In this document: positions 11,207-47,398 of the stretch, in pieces
Numbering within the stretch: the first letter of the stretch is position 1
Layout of the letters: each line of letters begins with the position of its first letter
Assembly (NCBI RefSeq): GCF_000695795.1
Contig: NZ_JNCA01000016.1
Location: 186,001 to 250,000, forward strand
DNA: 64,000 nucleotides
Reading direction: 5' to 3'
Origin: Flavobacterium seoulense
Lineage (GTDB): Bacteria > Bacteroidota > Bacteroidia > Flavobacteriales > Flavobacteriaceae
Program-made: the position numbers and the translations under genes
Notes under the pieces: generated by a model
The model's input: only the letters and a program-made list of their open reading frames with translations
The model's database searches: none
Told to the model about the DNA's origin: nothing

Positions 11207-14200
11207 TTATTTAGTAATCGTTATTTTAGTTTTAATGTCATCAAATTCAATTTCTGTGCCATTCTCAATACTCGTTTTAAAAACCAACTCTTCAGTTAAT
11301 GTCTCTGATTTAATGTAACCATTATTTTCATTAACAGCTACTTCTAAAACAGCATTGCTTTGCAAATACACTTTAATTTTATCAGTCACTTCAAATCCTG
11401 AATCTTTTCTGATGTTCTGGATTCTGTTCACTAACTCTCTTGCAATTCCTTCTTTTCTCAATTCTTCCGAAATTGTGATATCAAGCGCAACGGTGATTCC
11501 GTTTGAATTAGCAACCAGCCAACCCTCGATATCCTGAGAGGTAATTTCAACATCCTCTAATGATAAAGTTACGTCTTTTCCTGCAATAACAATACTTAAG
11601 CTTCCTTCTTTATCCAACTGATTGATTTGCTCTGGAGAAAAATTTTGTATCTCTTTAGAAATCAACCCCATATCTTTTCCAAAACGTGGTCCAAGTGCTT
11701 TAAAATTAGGCTTAATTTGTTTTACCAATACTCCTGATGCATCGTCTAAAAGCTCCACTTCTTTCACGTTTACCTCTGCTTTTATCAGGTCAGAAACCGC
11801 TTCAATTTCAGCCTTCTGTTTCTCGTCAAGTACTGGAATCATTACCTTTTGCAACGGTTGACGTACCTTGATCATCTCCTTCTTACGCAGTGATAAAACC
11901 AGTGATGAAATGGTCTGTGCTTTCTGCATTTTGCTCTCAAGCGATTTATCAACAAAGTTTTCAACGTATTTTGGAAATTCCGCCAAATGTACACTATCGA
12001 AATTTTCTGTTTGTGTAGCCAAAGTTAAGTCTCTGTAAAGCTTATCCATAAAGAATGGCGCAATAGGTGCACTCAGTTTACTTACCGTTAACAAACAAGT
12101 ATAAAGCGTTTGATAAGCTGCAATTTTATCCTGAGCATATTCCCCTTTCCAGAAACGACGACGACACAAACGAACGTACCAGTTACTTAAATTTTCCTGA
12201 ACGAAATCAGAAATAGCACGGGCAGCTCTTGTAGGCTCATAATCAGCATAAGCCTCATCAACTAATTTGATTAAGGTATGTAATTCTGATAAAATCCAAC
12301 GGTCAATTTCCGGTCTTTCATTCAATGGAACTTCCGCCTCATCAAATTTGAAACCATCAATATTAGCATACAAACTAAAGAATGAATATGTATTGTAAAG
12401 TGTTCCAAAGAATTTTCTTCTTACCTCAGCCACACCTTCGATATCAAATTTTAAGTTATCCCAAGGATTTGCATTAGCAATCATGTACCAACGCGTAGCA
12501 TCAGGACCATATTCAGCCAAAGTGGTAAATGGATCAACAGCATTTCCTAGACGCTTAGACATTTTTTGTCCGTTTTTGTCCAACACCAATCCGTTAGAAA
12601 CTACATTTTTATAAGCAACATTATCAAAAACCAAAGTTCCGATAGCATGCAAAGTATAAAACCATCCACGGGTTTGATCCACACCTTCGGCAATGAAATC
12701 AGCCGGGAACGATTGGTTATTATCAATTAATTCTTTGTTTTCAAAAGGATAATGCCATTGCGCATAAGGCATAGCTCCTGAATCGAACCAAACGTCAATC
12801 AAATCGCTTTCACGTTTCATTGGTTTTCCTGAAGCCGAAACTAATGTAATTCCGTCCACTACATTTTTATGCAGGTCAACTAAATCATAGTTACTTTCGC
12901 TCATGTTTCCAATTTCAAATCCTTTGAATGGATTTTCTTTTTGGAAACCTGCTGCGATTGATTTCTCAATTTCGTTGTACAACTCTTCCACCGAGCCAAT
13001 CAGGATTTCTTCCTGTTTATCATCGGTTCTCCAAATTGGCAATGGAATTCCCCAATATCTGGAACGCGATAAATTCCAGTCGTTCGCATTTTTCAACCAA
13101 TTACCAAAACGTCCTTCTCCGGTTGCTTTTGGTTTCCAGTTGATTGATTCGTTCAAATCAAACATTCTGTCTCTCACTTCAGTGATTTTGATAAACCACG
13201 AATCCAAAGGATAGTACAAAATAGGCTTATCGGTTCTCCAGCAATGTGGGTAACTGTGCACGTATTTTTCTACTTTGAACGCTTTATTTTCTTCTTTTAA
13301 TCGAATAGCAATCTCAACATCAACCGAACGCTCTGGTGCCTGATCAGCATCGTAATATTCGTTCTTCACATATTTTCCGGCAAATTCACCGCCTACATGA
13401 GAAGTAAATTTTCCTTGTAAATCTACTAATGGAACCGCAGTACCGTTTTCGTCCAAAACTAACATTGGCGGAACCTCAGGTGTAGCTTCTTTCGCTACTT
13501 TAGCATCATCAGCACCAAAAGTTGGCGCCGTGTGTACAATTCCCGTTCCATCCTCGGTAGTAACGAAATCCCCAGAAATTACTCTAAAAGCATTTTCCGG
13601 ATTTTGATATGGCAATGTCCAAGGCAATAATTGTTCGTAGCGAATACCTACTAAATCAGCTCCTTTTGCTTCGGTTAAAATTTGGTACGGAATCTTTTTA
13701 TCTCCTGCTTTGTAATTTTCAAAATCAGCAGCATCTTCGCTTAAGAAAAATCCTTTACCAAATTGTTTTCCAACTAAATTCTTAGCCAAAACAACATTGA
13801 TTGGCTCAAAAGTATATTGATTAAACGTTTTTACTAAAACATAATCTATTTTTGGACCTACAGTCAAAGCTGTGTTTGAAGGCAAAGTCCAGGGAGTAGT
13901 CGTCCAGGCTAAGATATAAAAATCCTCCCCCGACCCCTCCGAAGGAGGGGAGGCAAGACGAAATGCTTTTTCTATAGAGTTTTCAACTCCCTTTCCTTTG
14001 GAAAGGGCTGGGGATAGGACTTTAAACTGAGCTACAATCGTAGTATCAGTCACATCGCGGTAAGAACCCGGCTGATTCACCTCATGCGATGACAATCCTG
14101 TTCCTGCTTTTGGAGAATACGGCTGAATAGTATAACCTTTGTACATCAAATCCTTGTTGTAAATTTGTTTCAAAAGCCACCAAACCGTTTCCATATATTT

Positions 14201-14665
14201 GGGTTTATAAGTCACATACGGATCTTCCATATCTACCCAATAACCCATTTTTTCGGTCAAATCATTCCATACATCCGTATAACGCATTACTGTTTTTTTA
14301 CAGGCTTCGTTATAATCTTCTACCGAAATGCTTTTCCCAATATCTTCTTTAGTAATTCCTAATTCTTTCTCAGTACCTAATTCTACTGGTAATCCATGAG
14401 TATCCCAACCTGCTTTACGCTTTACCTGAAATCCTTTTTGGGTTTTATATCTGCAAAAAATATCCTTAATAGCACGAGCCATTACGTGGTGAATTCCCGG
14501 CAATCCATTTGCCGAAGGCGGGCCTTCAAAAAATACGTAAGGAGCATTCCCTTCACGCGTAGTTACACTTTTTTCAAATATATTTTCTTTCTTCCAAAAA
14601 TCCAGAACTTCCGACGCTACCGTTGGCAAGTCAAGTCCTTTGTATTCAGTAAATTTTGTACTCAT
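11207..14665 (-). CDS. ileS: Isoleucyl-tRNA synthetase with an in-frame repeat insertion
   Basis: Charges tRNA-Ile with isoleucine; class I synthetase. The 1152-residue protein has the HIGH-type motif within PPSANGLPGIHHVMAR (about 50-65), AWTTTPWTLPSNTAL at the start of the CP1 editing domain, WFDSGAMPYAQWHYP, and the KMSKR loop (GQKMSKRLGN). The signature style is the eukaryote-like (IleS2) group rather than the E. coli group. Residues about 216-248, just before CP1, are encoded by a palindromic repeat shared with two intergenic sites in this window. The frame stays open through it, so the enzyme is presumably functional. It heads the cluster with the DksA-like gene and lspA. Confidence 0.97.
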   Translation of the reverse strand: MSTKFTEYKGLDLPTVASEVLDFWKKENIFEKSVTTREGNAPYVFFEGPPSANGLPGIHHVMARAIKDIFCRYKTQKGFQVKRKAGWDTHGLPVELGTEKELGITKEDIGKSISVEDYNEACKKTVMRYTDVWNDLTEKMGYWVDMEDPYVTYKPKYMETVWWLLKQIYNKDLMYKGYTIQPYSPKAGTGLSSHEVNQPGSYRDVTDTTIVAQFKVLSPALSKGKGVENSIEKAFRLASPPSEGSGEDFYILAWTTTPWTLPSNTALTVGPKIDYVLVKTFNQYTFEPINVVLAKNLVGKQFGKGFFLSEDAADFENYKAGDKKIPYQILTEAKGADLVGIRYEQLLPWTLPYQNPENAFRVISGDFVTTEDGTGIVHTAPTFGADDAKVAKEATPEVPPMLVLDENGTAVPLVDLQGKFTSHVGGEFAGKYVKNEYYDADQAPERSVDVEIAIRLKEENKAFKVEKYVHSYPHCWRTDKPILYYPLDSWFIKITEVRDRMFDLNESINWKPKATGEGRFGNWLKNANDWNLSRSRYWGIPLPIWRTDDKQEEILIGSVEELYNEIEKSIAAGFQKENPFKGFEIGNMSESNYDLVDLHKNVVDGITLVSASGKPMKRESDLIDVWFDSGAMPYAQWHYPFENKELIDNNQSFPADFIAEGVDQTRGWFYTLHAIGTLVFDNVAYKNVVSNGLVLDKNGQKMSKRLGNAVDPFTTLAEYGPDATRWYMIANANPWDNLKFDIEGVAEVRRKFFGTLYNTYSFFSLYANIDGFKFDEAEVPLNERPEIDRWILSELHTLIKLVDEAYADYEPTRAARAISDFVQENLSNWYVRLCRRRFWKGEYAQDKIAAYQTLYTCLLTVSKLSAPIAPFFMDKLYRDLTLATQTENFDSVHLAEFPKYVENFVDKSLESKMQKAQTISSLVLSLRKKEMIKVRQPLQKVMIPVLDEKQKAEIEAVSDLIKAEVNVKEVELLDDASGVLVKQIKPNFKALGPRFGKDMGLISKEIQNFSPEQINQLDKEGSLSIVIAGKDVTLSLEDVEITSQDIEGWLVANSNGITVALDITISEELRKEGIARELVNRIQNIRKDSGFEVTDKIKVYLQSNAVLEVAVNENNGYIKSETLTEELVFKTSIENGTEIEFDDIKTKITITK
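13924..14018 (-). repeat. Double-hairpin repeat inside ileS (coding copy)
   Basis: About 95 bp with two perfect hairpins: CCCCTCC-GAA-GGAGGGG (13934-13950) and CCCTTTCC-TTT-GGAAAGGG (13989-14007). Read on the minus strand it has the same order as the copies before gmk and the DUF58 gene: a left hairpin preceded by a C-rich end, a spacer starting GAGTTGAAA, a right hairpin, and a G-rich end. It encodes roughly VLSPALSKGKGVENS through SPPSEGSGED. Confidence 0.8.
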
Positions 14666-23189: not shown

Positions 23190-23193
23190 AAAA

Positions 23194-23282
23194 TCCCCTT
23201 AACCCCCAAAGGGGAAACAATAGGAGGTAATAAATTATAATATTAACGTAACATTCCTCCCCTTTGGGGAGGCTAGGAGGGG
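23194..23282 (+). repeat. Double-hairpin repeat filling the yicC-gmk gap
   Basis: Left hairpin CCCC-AAA-GGGG (23204-23214) after TCCCCTTAA, a 41-base AT-rich spacer, right hairpin CCTCCCC-TTT-GGGGAGG (23256-23272), then CTAGGAGGGG ending one base before the gmk ATG at 23283. The ends are roughly inverted repeats of each other. It thus forms the whole 5' leader of gmk. Confidence 0.85.
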
Positions 23283-23852
23283 ATGAAAAAAGGAAAATTA
23301 ATCGTATTCTCGGCGCCATCAGGTTCCGGAAAAACAACTATAGTTAGACATTTATTAAAGCAGGAAGAACTTAATTTAGAGTTTTCAATCTCGGCAGCAA
23401 CCCGTGAAGCCAGAGGTGAAGAAGTAAACGGAAAGGATTACTATTTTATCTCTTTGGAAGAATTTAAAAACCATATCAAACACGAAGATTTCGTAGAATG
23501 GGAAGAAGTTTACAGAGACAATTTCTACGGAACTTTAAAAAGTGAAGTAGAACGCATCTGGGCTTTGGGCAAAAACGTAATTTTTGACATTGACGTTGCT
23601 GGCGGATTGCGTATCAAACATAAATTTCCCGAAGAAACTCTGGCTGTTTTTGTAAAACCACCAAGTGTTGACGAATTGAAAAGACGTTTAAAAGAGCGCT
23701 CTACCGAAAGCGAAGACAAAATCAACATGCGTATTGCTAAAGCGCACGTAGAACTGGCAACCGCTCCGCAATTTGATGTGATTATTAAGAATTATGATTT
23801 GGAAGTAGCTTTGGAAGAGGCGACAGAGCTTGTTAGAAACTTTGTGAAATAA
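23283..23852 (+). CDS. gmk: Guanylate kinase
   Basis: Phosphorylates GMP to GDP. The 189-residue enzyme has the P-loop SAPSGSGKTTIVRHLL (about 10-25), the GMP-binding stretch ATREARGEEVNGKDYYFIS, and the lid with RLKERSTESEDKINMR. Length is standard. The start codon directly abuts the G-rich end of the double-hairpin repeat (GGAGGGG then ATG), so its translation initiation region comes from a repeat. Cotranscription with yicC and nadD is likely. Confidence 0.97.
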   Translation: MKKGKLIVFSAPSGSGKTTIVRHLLKQEELNLEFSISAATREARGEEVNGKDYYFISLEEFKNHIKHEDFVEWEEVYRDNFYGTLKSEVERIWALGKNVIFDIDVAGGLRIKHKFPEETLAVFVKPPSVDELKRRLKERSTESEDKINMRIAKAHVELATAPQFDVIIKNYDLEVALEEATELVRNFVK

Positions 23853-31187: not shown

Positions 31188-31224
31188 TTTCATCCAATAA
31201 TTGAGTGGGCAAATTTAAGGAAAA

Positions 31225-31252
31225 GTTAGAAGTTAGAAGTTAGAAGTTAGAA
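31225..31252. repeat. Four tandem copies of GTTAGAA upstream of pheS
   Basis: Perfect heptamer array at 31225-31231, 31232-31238, 31239-31245 and 31246-31252, then GTTTTT. The same four-copy array is at 31664-31691. Confidence 0.9.
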
Positions 31253-31298
31253 GTTTTTCTAAAATTCTTAACTGATTACTGCTACTGCACACTGAATA

Positions 31299-31655
31299 CT
31301 AATCAATAAGCTCCTTTTCTATAAAATAATTCACAATAGCTTCTTTCATTAAAACCGATTGCTCTCCGGCTTTTAAAGCTGGTAATTGTTCTTTTACCTT
31401 ATAATGCGGCCAGCCTTCCTGATCTACAAAATCAAATTCGTAATAACCATAAGGTTCTAACAGGCGGCAAATAGCAATATGCATTAAATTGAGTTTCTCG
31501 TCTTTCTTGAATTCACGATGTAATTTACCCAATTCCTGAACTCCAATTAGAAAAATAATGGAGTCTAAATCAAGATCTTCTCCTTGCGAAAATTGATTAG
31601 AAAGTATATCAACAAGCTTTTCCCAGCGTTCTTTAAGTTGTGTGTCTCTTGACAT
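31299..31655 (-). CDS. Conserved hypothetical protein, 118 residues
   Basis: A soluble protein with FLIGVQELGKLHREFKKDEK, LMHIAICRLLEPYGYYEFD and VDQEGWPHYKVKEQLPALK. Mostly helical, no signal peptide, no cofactor motif. I recall it as widely conserved in Bacteroidota near pheS but without a known function. It is flanked on both sides by identical GTTAGAA x4 arrays. Confidence 0.7.
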   Translation of the reverse strand: MSRDTQLKERWEKLVDILSNQFSQGEDLDLDSIIFLIGVQELGKLHREFKKDEKLNLMHIAICRLLEPYGYYEFDFVDQEGWPHYKVKEQLPALKAGEQSVLMKEAIVNYFIEKELID

Positions 31656-31663
31656 TTTTGAGT

Positions 31664-31691
31664 GTTAGAAGTTAGAAGTTAGAAGTTAGAA
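31664..31691. repeat. Four tandem copies of GTTAGAA upstream of the 118-residue gene
   Basis: Heptamers at 31664-31670, 31671-31677, 31678-31684 and 31685-31691, same orientation as the array at 31225-31252. Both arrays have exactly four copies. Confidence 0.9.
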
Positions 31692-31791
31692 GTTGGCATT
31701 CTTATTTCTAAGTATCTAAAATTATTGAAGCAAAGATACTAACTGTGTATTTGACTTCTCTATTTTCTTTTCTCTATTTTCTTTATTCTTC

Positions 31792-40460: not shown

Positions 40461-40463
40461 TTT

Positions 40464-40558
40464 CCCCTCCTAACCTCCCCAAAGGGGAGGAATTATTTGT
40501 CGATATACTTAGAAATTTCAACTCTCCAAAAGCCCCTCCTTTGGAGGGGTTGGGGAGG
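40464..40558 (-). repeat. Double-hairpin repeat filling the moxR-DUF58 gap
   Basis: Two perfect hairpins, CCTCCCC-AAA-GGGGAGG (40474-40490) and CCCCTCC-TTT-GGAGGGG (40533-40549). The element fills the whole gap between the moxR stop and the DUF58 start. In coding orientation its order matches the yicC-gmk copy, and its spacer shares GAGTTGAAA with the ileS copy. Confidence 0.88.
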
Positions 40559-40559
40559 A

Positions 40560-41564
40560 TTAAGGTACTTCTACTTCGTTGATAATTTTATTGATGATAT
40601 CTACCGAAGTGATATTTTCTGCTTCGGCCTCATACGTTACTCCCACTCTATGACGCAATACATCATGAACAACAGCACGAACATCTTCAGGAATTACATA
40701 ACCACGACGTTTGATAAATGCATAACATTTAGCAGCATTTGCTAAATTGATACTTCCACGTGGCGAAGATCCAAAACTAATTAATGGTTTTAAATCAGCT
40801 AATTTGTATTTCTCTGGGTAACGGGTAGCAAAAATAATATCAAGAATGTATTTCTCGATTTTTTCGTCCATATACACTTCACGAACGGCTTGTTGCGCAC
40901 GTAAAATTTGTTCAATAGAAACCACCTGATTTACCTTGTCATAACTTCCGCTTAAGTTTTGACGAATTACCAATCGCTCTTCATCCATTTTAGGATAATC
41001 AATCACTGTTTTTAGCATAAAACGATCGACTTGTGCTTCTGGTAATTGATAAGTTCCTTCCTGCTCAATTGGGTTTTGTGTAGCCAAAACCAGGAAAGGT
41101 TTTTCTAATTTAAAAGTAGTATCCCCAATAGTAACCTGCTTTTCCTGCATGGCTTCTAATAATGCTGATTGCACCTTTGCCGGAGCACGGTTAATCTCAT
41201 CGGCTAGAACGAAATTAGCAAAAATAGGTCCTTTTTTTATCGAAAATTCATTTGCTTTAATGTTATAAATCATTGTCCCTATAACATCGGCAGGTAATAA
41301 ATCTGGTGTAAACTGGATACGGCTAAAAGAACCATGAACTGCCTGAGAAAGCGTATTAATAGCTAATGTTTTTGCCAGTCCGGGAACACCTTCCAGTAAA
41401 ATATGACCCTGCCCTAATAATCCAATCAATAATCGTTCAATCATGTGCTTTTGACCTACAATCACTTTATTCATTTCCATAGTAAGAAGGTCTATAAAAG
41501 CACTTTCTCTTTCTATCTTTTCGTTGATTGCTCTAATGTCTAAAGTCGACGTATTCTCTTCCAT
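40560..41564 (-). CDS. moxR: MoxR-family AAA ATPase
   Basis: A 334-residue AAA+ chaperone-type ATPase: Walker A GVPGLAKT, Walker B LADEINRAPAKVQSALLEAM, sensor region ATQNPIEQEGTYQLPEAQVD, and the C-terminal lid with SFGSSPRGSINLANAAKCYA. MoxR proteins remodel partner VWA proteins. It is the first gene of the eight-gene operon running moxR, DUF58, the 543-residue protein, batA, batB, batC, batD, batE. Confidence 0.95.
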   Translation of the reverse strand: MEENTSTLDIRAINEKIERESAFIDLLTMEMNKVIVGQKHMIERLLIGLLGQGHILLEGVPGLAKTLAINTLSQAVHGSFSRIQFTPDLLPADVIGTMIYNIKANEFSIKKGPIFANFVLADEINRAPAKVQSALLEAMQEKQVTIGDTTFKLEKPFLVLATQNPIEQEGTYQLPEAQVDRFMLKTVIDYPKMDEERLVIRQNLSGSYDKVNQVVSIEQILRAQQAVREVYMDEKIEKYILDIIFATRYPEKYKLADLKPLISFGSSPRGSINLANAAKCYAFIKRRGYVIPEDVRAVVHDVLRHRVGVTYEAEAENITSVDIINKIINEVEVP

Positions 41565-47317: not shown

Positions 47318-47398
47318 TTTTAGCCCCGATAGTAACGGCATCCTTTTCCTGATTTCTTTAAGCAGGAAAAGATAGAGTGGATAGCGGGAAATAGCTTC
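47318..47398. repeat. Intergenic repeat with AGCCCCGATAG...GGATAGCGGGA ends
   Basis: Inner 9 bp hairpin CTTTTCCTG (47343-47351) with CAGGAAAAG (47363-47371), enclosed by TAGCCCCGATAG on the left and GGATAGCGGGAAATAGC on the right, roughly complementary. I recognise this phrase from memory as a common intergenic element in Flavobacterium genomes. Confidence 0.55.

Follow-up and report, generated by a model that had tools for sequence, protein, structure and literature searches.

What is a palindromic stretch of DNA doing inside the reading frame of ileS, the isoleucyl-tRNA synthetase gene of Flavobacterium seoulense, and how did it get there? The initial annotation of this DNA had proposed a mobile non-coding repeat, tolerated in an essential synthetase. 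We compared the locus with ileS from other Flavobacteriaceae and followed sequences resembling the element through their genomes. Throughout, "the window" is the whole stretch of 64,000 nucleotides that was analysed, and positions refer to it. We put the probability at roughly 60% that the ileS insert is the short, nuclease-less form of an in-frame, unspliced mobile element with a DUF559 nuclease, i.e. one that would spread by homing.

Structure of the element in ileS

The features of the locus and of two related intergenic sites are as follows.

11207 to 14665, minus strand: ileS, the gene that hosts the element, for an isoleucyl-tRNA synthetase of 1152 aa; a single uninterrupted frame with Pfam tRNA-synt_1
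13919 to 14020, minus strand: in-frame palindromic element (P allele), encoding KVLSPALSKGKG-VENSIEKAFRLA-SPPSEGSGEDF; without counterpart in PDB 8c8w
13989 to 14007, minus strand: perfect hairpin CCCTTTCC-TTT-GGAAAGGG, gene-sense 5' end of the element; 35 of 37 bases of hairpin plus outer tail agree with the 5' end of L467, a DUF559 cassette in LeuS of another genus
13951 to 13988, minus strand: spacer, encoding (VE)NSIEKAFRLA; protein pattern N-x-x-x-K-A-F
13934 to 13950, minus strand: perfect hairpin CCCCTCC-GAA-GGAGGGG, gene-sense 3' end of the element, followed by the tail TCGGGGGAGGA
23193 to 23284, plus strand: pair of related hairpin units between genes, with the right tail reaching the ATG of the ORF at 23283
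40463 to 40561, no strand assigned: two related hairpin units between genes, paired in opposite orientation, with the shared hairpin/tail architecture

The insertion is in frame and brings neither frameshift nor stop, and the two perfect hairpins are present, as the initial annotation had described. The extra residues just before the editing domain, previously put at about 32 (216-248), number about 30 (218-247): they are unmatched in the solved IleRS 8c8w, where the alignment breaks between query residues 217 and 248 (chain 212 and 216) and picks up again at YILAWTTTPWT. By eye, an outer complementary pair, TCCTCCCCC / GGGGATAGGA, encloses both hairpins. On each strand just one of 200 dinucleotide shuffles folds at least as well as the element (z -3.2 and -2.9), and none of 400 synonymous-codon shuffles reached the two-stem score of the loop, so its palindromy goes beyond what the protein requires. 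Among 28 distinct P loops, all in frame and without a stop, the summed two best stems averaged 11.2, compared with 5.7 in synonymous-codon shuffles; at most 3 of 400 shuffles reached the observed palindromy in 15 of these loops, and five (L019, L020, L064, L189, L244) had little or no excess, at least 165 of 400 shuffles being as good. The palindromy of P loops is a property of the DNA.

An AlphaFold model of IleS 1-555 (28 sequences) had a mean pLDDT of 45.8, too poor to place the loop; in it, residues 230-238 look like a helix flanked by the strands 206-217 and 249-255, at a quality too low to be used. The Pfam scan of this IleS found no Hint or intein domain, and the search for a plasmid source of the element gave no match. 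Rfam found no family at the element; its only match in the window was the sRNA family Flavo-1 (47318-47395, plus strand, 75 bits). Elsewhere in the window, short GAAGTTA tandem repeats (31223-31257 and 31662-31710) flank an ORF at 31299-31655.

Empty and occupied alleles at the ileS site

In the genus sample 101 Flavobacterium genomes were searched and ileS was read in 97. The empty form (E), in which the loop has 19-20 residues (44 residues over PGxY..WTTTPWT), was found at 76 of these loci, 12 carried a 63-residue loop that we call YDYI, and nine were P or decayed P. Relatives therefore have the empty sites expected of an insertion, and do not all share a native loop of similar length. YDYI occupies the same site in IleS and has no palindromes, so not every long loop here is a P element. 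On the IleS tree the YDYI loci (L022-L026, L028, L034, L037, L046-L048, L060) are scattered, requiring seven changes.

The family sample consisted of 110 genomes, one per genus (our own and 109 other genera), of which the 90 with the best matches were read. Of these best 90 loops, 85 were 19-20 residues long, two were P (our own and G470), two were half forms (G412, G466) and one was another long loop. All seven Pedobacter sequences read were E. Taken together, these counts make E most likely the ancestral state at the site.

P alleles also occur in other genera, i.e. in Maribacter flavus, Confluentibacter citreus, a Galbibacter and MAGs. The nearest named relatives are Flavobacterium, in a set that is biased to P-like loops, as it came from one search peptide (EDFYILAW) with the best 80 of 593 kept. 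A pattern demanding GGGG near the site was found in 36 of 398 genomes, and 18 of the 30 loci read had clear P loops. The loops L020, L124 and L064 are decayed versions of P. P is thus an allele scattered, against E, over Flavobacterium and other genera, and the idea of an insertion tolerated in one strain had to be abandoned: the same site is filled in many species, across several genera, and the hairpin sequences vary.

The N-x-x-x-K-A-F pattern of the spacer recurs, with small variations, in P alleles of several genera. As far as sequence comparison goes, the NSIxKAF spacer is not demonstrably a remnant of a cassette (see below) or of the native loop. We considered whether it was a native E segment caught between two hairpins; the match picked by eye covered 17 of 21 bases, but when the comparison was made fairly, 10 of 96 control windows equalled it and the best register was a different one, so this origin was dropped.

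DUF559 nuclease cassettes in other conserved genes

When the repeat matches were traced, LeuS of two P genomes turned out to carry in-frame units, and one LeuS contained a complete additional DUF559 ORF. We then sought PF04480 in 34 hand-picked genomes (15 P, 14 E and 5 other) and found it in 24. DUF559 in frame within a reading frame of more than 600 aa was present in 12 of the 15 P genomes versus 3 of the 14 E genomes (Fisher 0.003, for genomes picked by hand). Profile search gave no PF04480 match in the P genomes G223 and G309. Among the genomes outside the two classes (decayed P: G087, G055, G010; YDYI: G007, G030), in-frame DUF559 was found in G087, G055 and G007, so the association is not limited to intact P.

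Full forms, in frame and free of stops, are present in LeuS, MetH, RecG and a UvrD-type helicase of Flavobacteriaceae. The cassettes sit in MetH between VAYLLPY and GKILMATV and in LeuS between GKSVGA.V.F and VFTTRPDT, with a second LeuS site in G254; the helicase, RecG and a Type ISP restriction/methylase protein are further hosts. They are 124-208 residues long, and all 35 extracted from four sites are open, although the extraction would miss frameshifted ones. They end, like the ileS element, in C/G-rich hairpins that carry purine tails: perfect hairpins flank 13 of 18 inspected cassettes on both sides and the other five on one side, and some of the missing ones are visible by inspection as imperfect hairpins. 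The core motif R-x-Q-H...DF.C...E-x-D-G..H is kept in 32 of 35 cassettes. The LeuS cassette L439 (G220) has decayed, with eroded palindromes, the catalytic EVDG changed to EVDV and an intact frame; it is possibly a fixed fossil.

Pfam found host domains on both sides of PF04480 in four of six chimeras; for L421 and L440 it listed upstream host domains only. None of the six had an intein domain. Alignments to PDB structures break at the cassette (MetH 406 to 551, LeuS 306 to 451). Matches of the nuclease to solved structures are 3hrl (6e-20) and 3r3p, titled "Mobile intron protein" (0.0013). In the family sample PF04480 was present in 188 of 397 genomes; among 150 matches listed, 48 lay in frames of at least 800 aa and 91 in short frames. 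Thirty of these family loci were read, 12 being LeuS and five MetH by sequence.

At conserved amino acids, the cassette had fewer synonymous differences than the host flanks in 166 of 187 pairs (MetH 62/66, LeuS 90/105, RecG 1/1, helicase 13/15); the cassettes are more recent than the split between the genes that host them. Their dN/dS was 0.16-0.64 (30 pairs listed of the 40, out of 187, kept for a cassette dS below 1), and the cassette nuclease is under purifying selection. In our own genome, a 56-contig draft, the sole PF04480 match is a Vsr-like gene with no palindromic ends, so that the proposed autonomous partner is missing here.

DUF559 also occurs in other settings. A clear palindrome accompanied 8 of the 17 stand-alone DUF559 genes examined (L435-L437, L446, L447, L458, L459, L477), on one or both sides and of other sequence, e.g. 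CCCCCTTCAAAGGGGG; the pairing of nuclease and palindrome may thus be wider than the in-frame cassettes. At L453, L466 and L469, DUF559 cassettes are fused ahead of a protein that we take, from its sequence, to be HemD, uroporphyrinogen-III synthase.

Shared ends of the ileS element and the cassettes

The 5' end of the ileS element, AAAGTCCTATCCCCAGCCCTTTCCAAAGGAAAGGGAG, has 35 of 37 bases in common with the 5' end of the LeuS cassette L467 of G783, which belongs to another genus. In a MAG, the 5' end of the ileS element L183 equals that of this LeuS cassette at 30 of 30 bases, and its 3' end, GGGAAGGATTTAGGATGGGA, is readable in the same cassette. When the ends of 32 ileS elements were taken as 64 segments of 30 nt, 29 matched some cassette end at 24 or more bases; against cassette interiors none did, the maximum being 19. 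A MITE, as a non-autonomous derivative, would have both ends in common with its autonomous element; our own element has a near-identical cassette partner for its 5' end only. The insertion sites resemble each other as well: by alignment break points, the LeuS insert lies just before TTRPDT and the IleS insert just before TTTPWT, which we take to be corresponding Thr-rich strands of the editing domain. No full DUF559 cassette was found in ileS, either among the 295 loci parsed, some of which share a genome and whose longest loop has 48 residues, or in the further loci read.

Related repeat units in the genome

Both intergenic elements to which the insert had been likened exist and have its hairpin/tail architecture; their middles differ. 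Over the whole genome, the full 111 bp element is single copy: a search with E up to 10 gave 14 matches, of which 13 are partial. A strict unit pattern found 16 units, 14 of them outside ileS, with none in the reversed control. All 16 tails are of the GGGG/GGAG type; the search pattern demands GG at this position, so that other tails would have escaped it. Three pairs of units bracket unique middles, and weaker partners can be seen by eye at other units.

In nine of the 14 units outside ileS, no more than 25 nt separate the purine tail from the ATG of a frame that is 100 aa or longer (sites at 23257-23283 and 40467 in the window, and L255, L256, L260, L261, L263-L265, L267, L268), and two of the tails are Shine-Dalgarno-like AGGAGG. 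The frames include presumed gmk (the ORF at 23283 in the window) and groEL, names assigned from the sequences.

The hairpin type in ileS follows the host genome's own repeats. Genomes with a CCCCC-type left hairpin in ileS had 9-45 element matches including ileS (n=8), compared with 2-13 in the others (n=6; Mann-Whitney p 0.005), and the other unit type showed the opposite trend (p 0.008). Repeat units were more numerous in the 15 P genomes than in the 14 E genomes, in the same hand-picked set (p 0.0007; p 0.007 after subtracting two per P genome for ileS), with exceptions, i.e. one E genome with 14 units and one P genome with none. The kinship with genomic repeats that the initial annotation had proposed stood, but "mobile non-coding repeat" is not the whole description, since the ends of the insert are of the kind that terminate in-frame DUF559 cassettes in LeuS, MetH and other genes.

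Proposed mechanism

The full form of the element would consist of a palindromic end, a DUF559/Vsr-like endonuclease ORF and an inverted palindromic end. The nuclease would be made as an inserted domain of the host protein and cut an empty allele, and repair would then copy the element into the cut allele with very short flanks, as with homing endonucleases. The palindromes would both mark the ends of the element and encode Pro/Gly/Ser-rich linkers; with such linkers the insert could form an extra surface loop, so that an essential enzyme would work without splicing. Short forms such as ours might originate when the nuclease is lost, or might rely on other copies for the nuclease that moves them, and may exchange hairpins with the repeats resident in the genome. 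A wider version of this proposal, for which we would offer slightly less than even odds, is that there exist "splice-free protein homing elements", i.e. palindrome-ended Vsr-like cassettes that enter essential genes in frame, stay there as additional domains of enzymes that still work, target corresponding LeuS and IleS sites, and leave short coding palindromes such as the one in our ileS.

Movement of the P loop and alternative explanations

The IleS tree was built from 150 rows with the loop left out, by a quick method with SH-aLRT support only; 16 of 177 loci with an unfitting loop pattern (including the P loops L141, L178, L180, L189 and L191) and 11 duplicates were excluded. The 12 P rows (four decayed) need 11 changes on this tree, at least eight of them forced by well-supported branches. 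This is hardly fewer than with shuffled labels (mean 11.7; 143 of 500 shuffles as low). The flanks of P match those of an E sister right up to the loop edge (L247 versus L116, 94.5%; L019 versus L058, 94.3%). Vertical inheritance with losses was rejected on account of the 11 changes and of such nested, near-identical E sequences.

Four P pairs were more alike in loop DNA than in flank DNA: L018/L247 (96% versus 81%), L018/L224 (92% versus 81%), L224/L247 (90% versus 81%) and L017/L229 (98% versus 90%). The largest excess among 600 random E pairs was 0.08, which the last of these pairs only equals. These comparisons suggest that some P loops can move as sharply bounded blocks. The loop was more alike than the flanks in 8 of 378 P pairs and not in the other 370, so that either the loop is transferred only occasionally or it changes fast after transfer.

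One could explain this pattern by passive spread, in which ordinary homologous recombination over short tracts carries the P loop from one species to another, with no nuclease of the element acting at ileS. The flanks conserved up to the loop edge agree with it, as do the common spacer pattern of P alleles, for which no second hairpin-flanked copy was found in the genomes (only spacer-like matches of 15-25 nt, e.g. L413), and the absence of a nuclease-bearing ileS among the ileS loci read. Yet the exchange is limited to about 100 bp, the hairpin types vary between P alleles and track each genome's repeat type, and the same ends are found on nuclease cassettes at the matching LeuS site; we consider this explanation unlikely.

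A further possibility, with still lower odds, is that the units are ordinary repetitive extragenic palindromes (REP/REPIN) moved by a RAYT, i.e. a Y1 tyrosine transposase, and that DUF559 genes merely gained REP ends. Small hairpin units with a tail, mostly intergenic and partly in inverted pairs, do fit this description, and Y1 transposases are present in 68 of 101 genus genomes, our own included. However, among 31 Y1 loci (about 1.5 kb on each side, perfect C/T-arm hairpins only) none had such a hairpin; one had an unrelated TTTCCC hairpin. The two RAYTs of our own genome (L192, C28:64791; L193, C17:716) are flanked by other palindrome families, e.g. CACAGATTACAAATCTGCGC, and it is the DUF559 cassettes that C-rich palindromes bracket instead.

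Very improbable is an old native loop, hypervariable and vertically inherited, whose palindromes arise and persist by template-switch correction of quasi-palindromes. Several unrelated alleles at the site (E, P, YDYI and a 50-residue loop) and the existence of decayed P loops are compatible with it. It is largely refuted by the nesting of P among near-identical E sequences, as in L247 and L116; the near-constant loop length in the family sample, and the presence of the same units elsewhere in the genomes, also count against it. That a G/C-rich coding sequence merely folds by chance might find support in the five P loops without clear palindromy excess, but this is refuted by the 15 of 28 loops that shuffles hardly ever reach and by the 16 genomic units against none in the reversed control, and its probability is negligible.

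Significance and comparison with known systems

Coding palindromes have long been known in Rickettsia, and the available parts of PMC2229807 and PMC3733652 name no mover for such sequences. Here, ends of the same kind occur with and without a nuclease, at corresponding sites and in many sequenced relatives, which makes the mover directly testable. Our results suggest that neither intein nor intron splicing is necessary for a nuclease to spread inside essential enzymes, and that the entry to the editing domain of class I synthetases is a repeated landing site. If the wider proposal is true, it would provide a nuclease-based origin for protein-coding palindromes in general.

Some of this is already known, namely in-frame palindromes in protein genes (PMC2229807, PMC3733652) and DUF559 as a homing nuclease (PMC9403480), as far as the accessible text of these papers goes. 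In its section on inteins, a cyanobacterial paper assigns a DUF559 gene to the EDxHD family of homing endonucleases (PMC9403480, partial text); this supports the homing explanation and removes part of its newness. The DUF559 passages found in the literature contain no link to palindromic repeats or to unspliced in-frame insertion. Palindromic ends, a nuclease and unspliced in-frame insertion were not found combined in the literature covered, which includes little of the subscription literature, where an earlier description is possible.

Rickettsia palindromic elements (RPEs) are palindromes of about 100 bp that lie between genes and in frame in conserved protein genes (PMC2229807, partial text). 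By description the ileS element is like them, being palindromic, in frame in a conserved gene and related to intergenic units; it differs in the phylum of its host and in having nuclease-bearing full forms, an RPE nuclease not being described in the available text of that paper. The RPE-like character proposed in the initial annotation holds to this extent, but a palindrome inside genes outside Rickettsia is not new: GTAG/CGTC REPs occur as units and dimers in protein genes including tRNA synthetases and repair genes (PMC3733652, partial text, in which "Bacteroid" appears once and "Flavobacter" never). Our units end in a purine tail (e.g. GGGGGAGGA), not in GTAG or CGTC, and differ from REP/REPIN with RAYT in that units of our type were found around the Y1 transposase gene at none of the 31 loci.

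Like inteins, the cassettes are in-frame nucleases in conserved genes, with horizontal spread and recurrent sites; unlike inteins, they have no Hint/intein domain (six chimeras), their palindromic ends encode Pro/Gly-rich peptides, and splicing is not expected. Their nuclease domain is related by sequence to the EDxHD enzyme I-Bth0305I (PDB 3r3p, E 0.0013), whose gene is said to sit in a phage intron. Whereas this gene is reportedly intron-borne and the DUF559 gene of the cyanobacterial paper is mentioned beside inteins, the cassette lies inside an unspliced protein-coding frame and has palindromic ends. Measured against homing elements, the DUF559 cassettes have a homing-competent nuclease fold, which the ileS form itself lacks, and the same site is occupied across species, alongside empty alleles, by an element younger than its host. 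The ileS element fits neither the RAYT nor the intein definition; in DNA and protein it works like a coding palindrome, as do RPEs and intragenic REPs, and its full relatives resemble a homing element that is not spliced.
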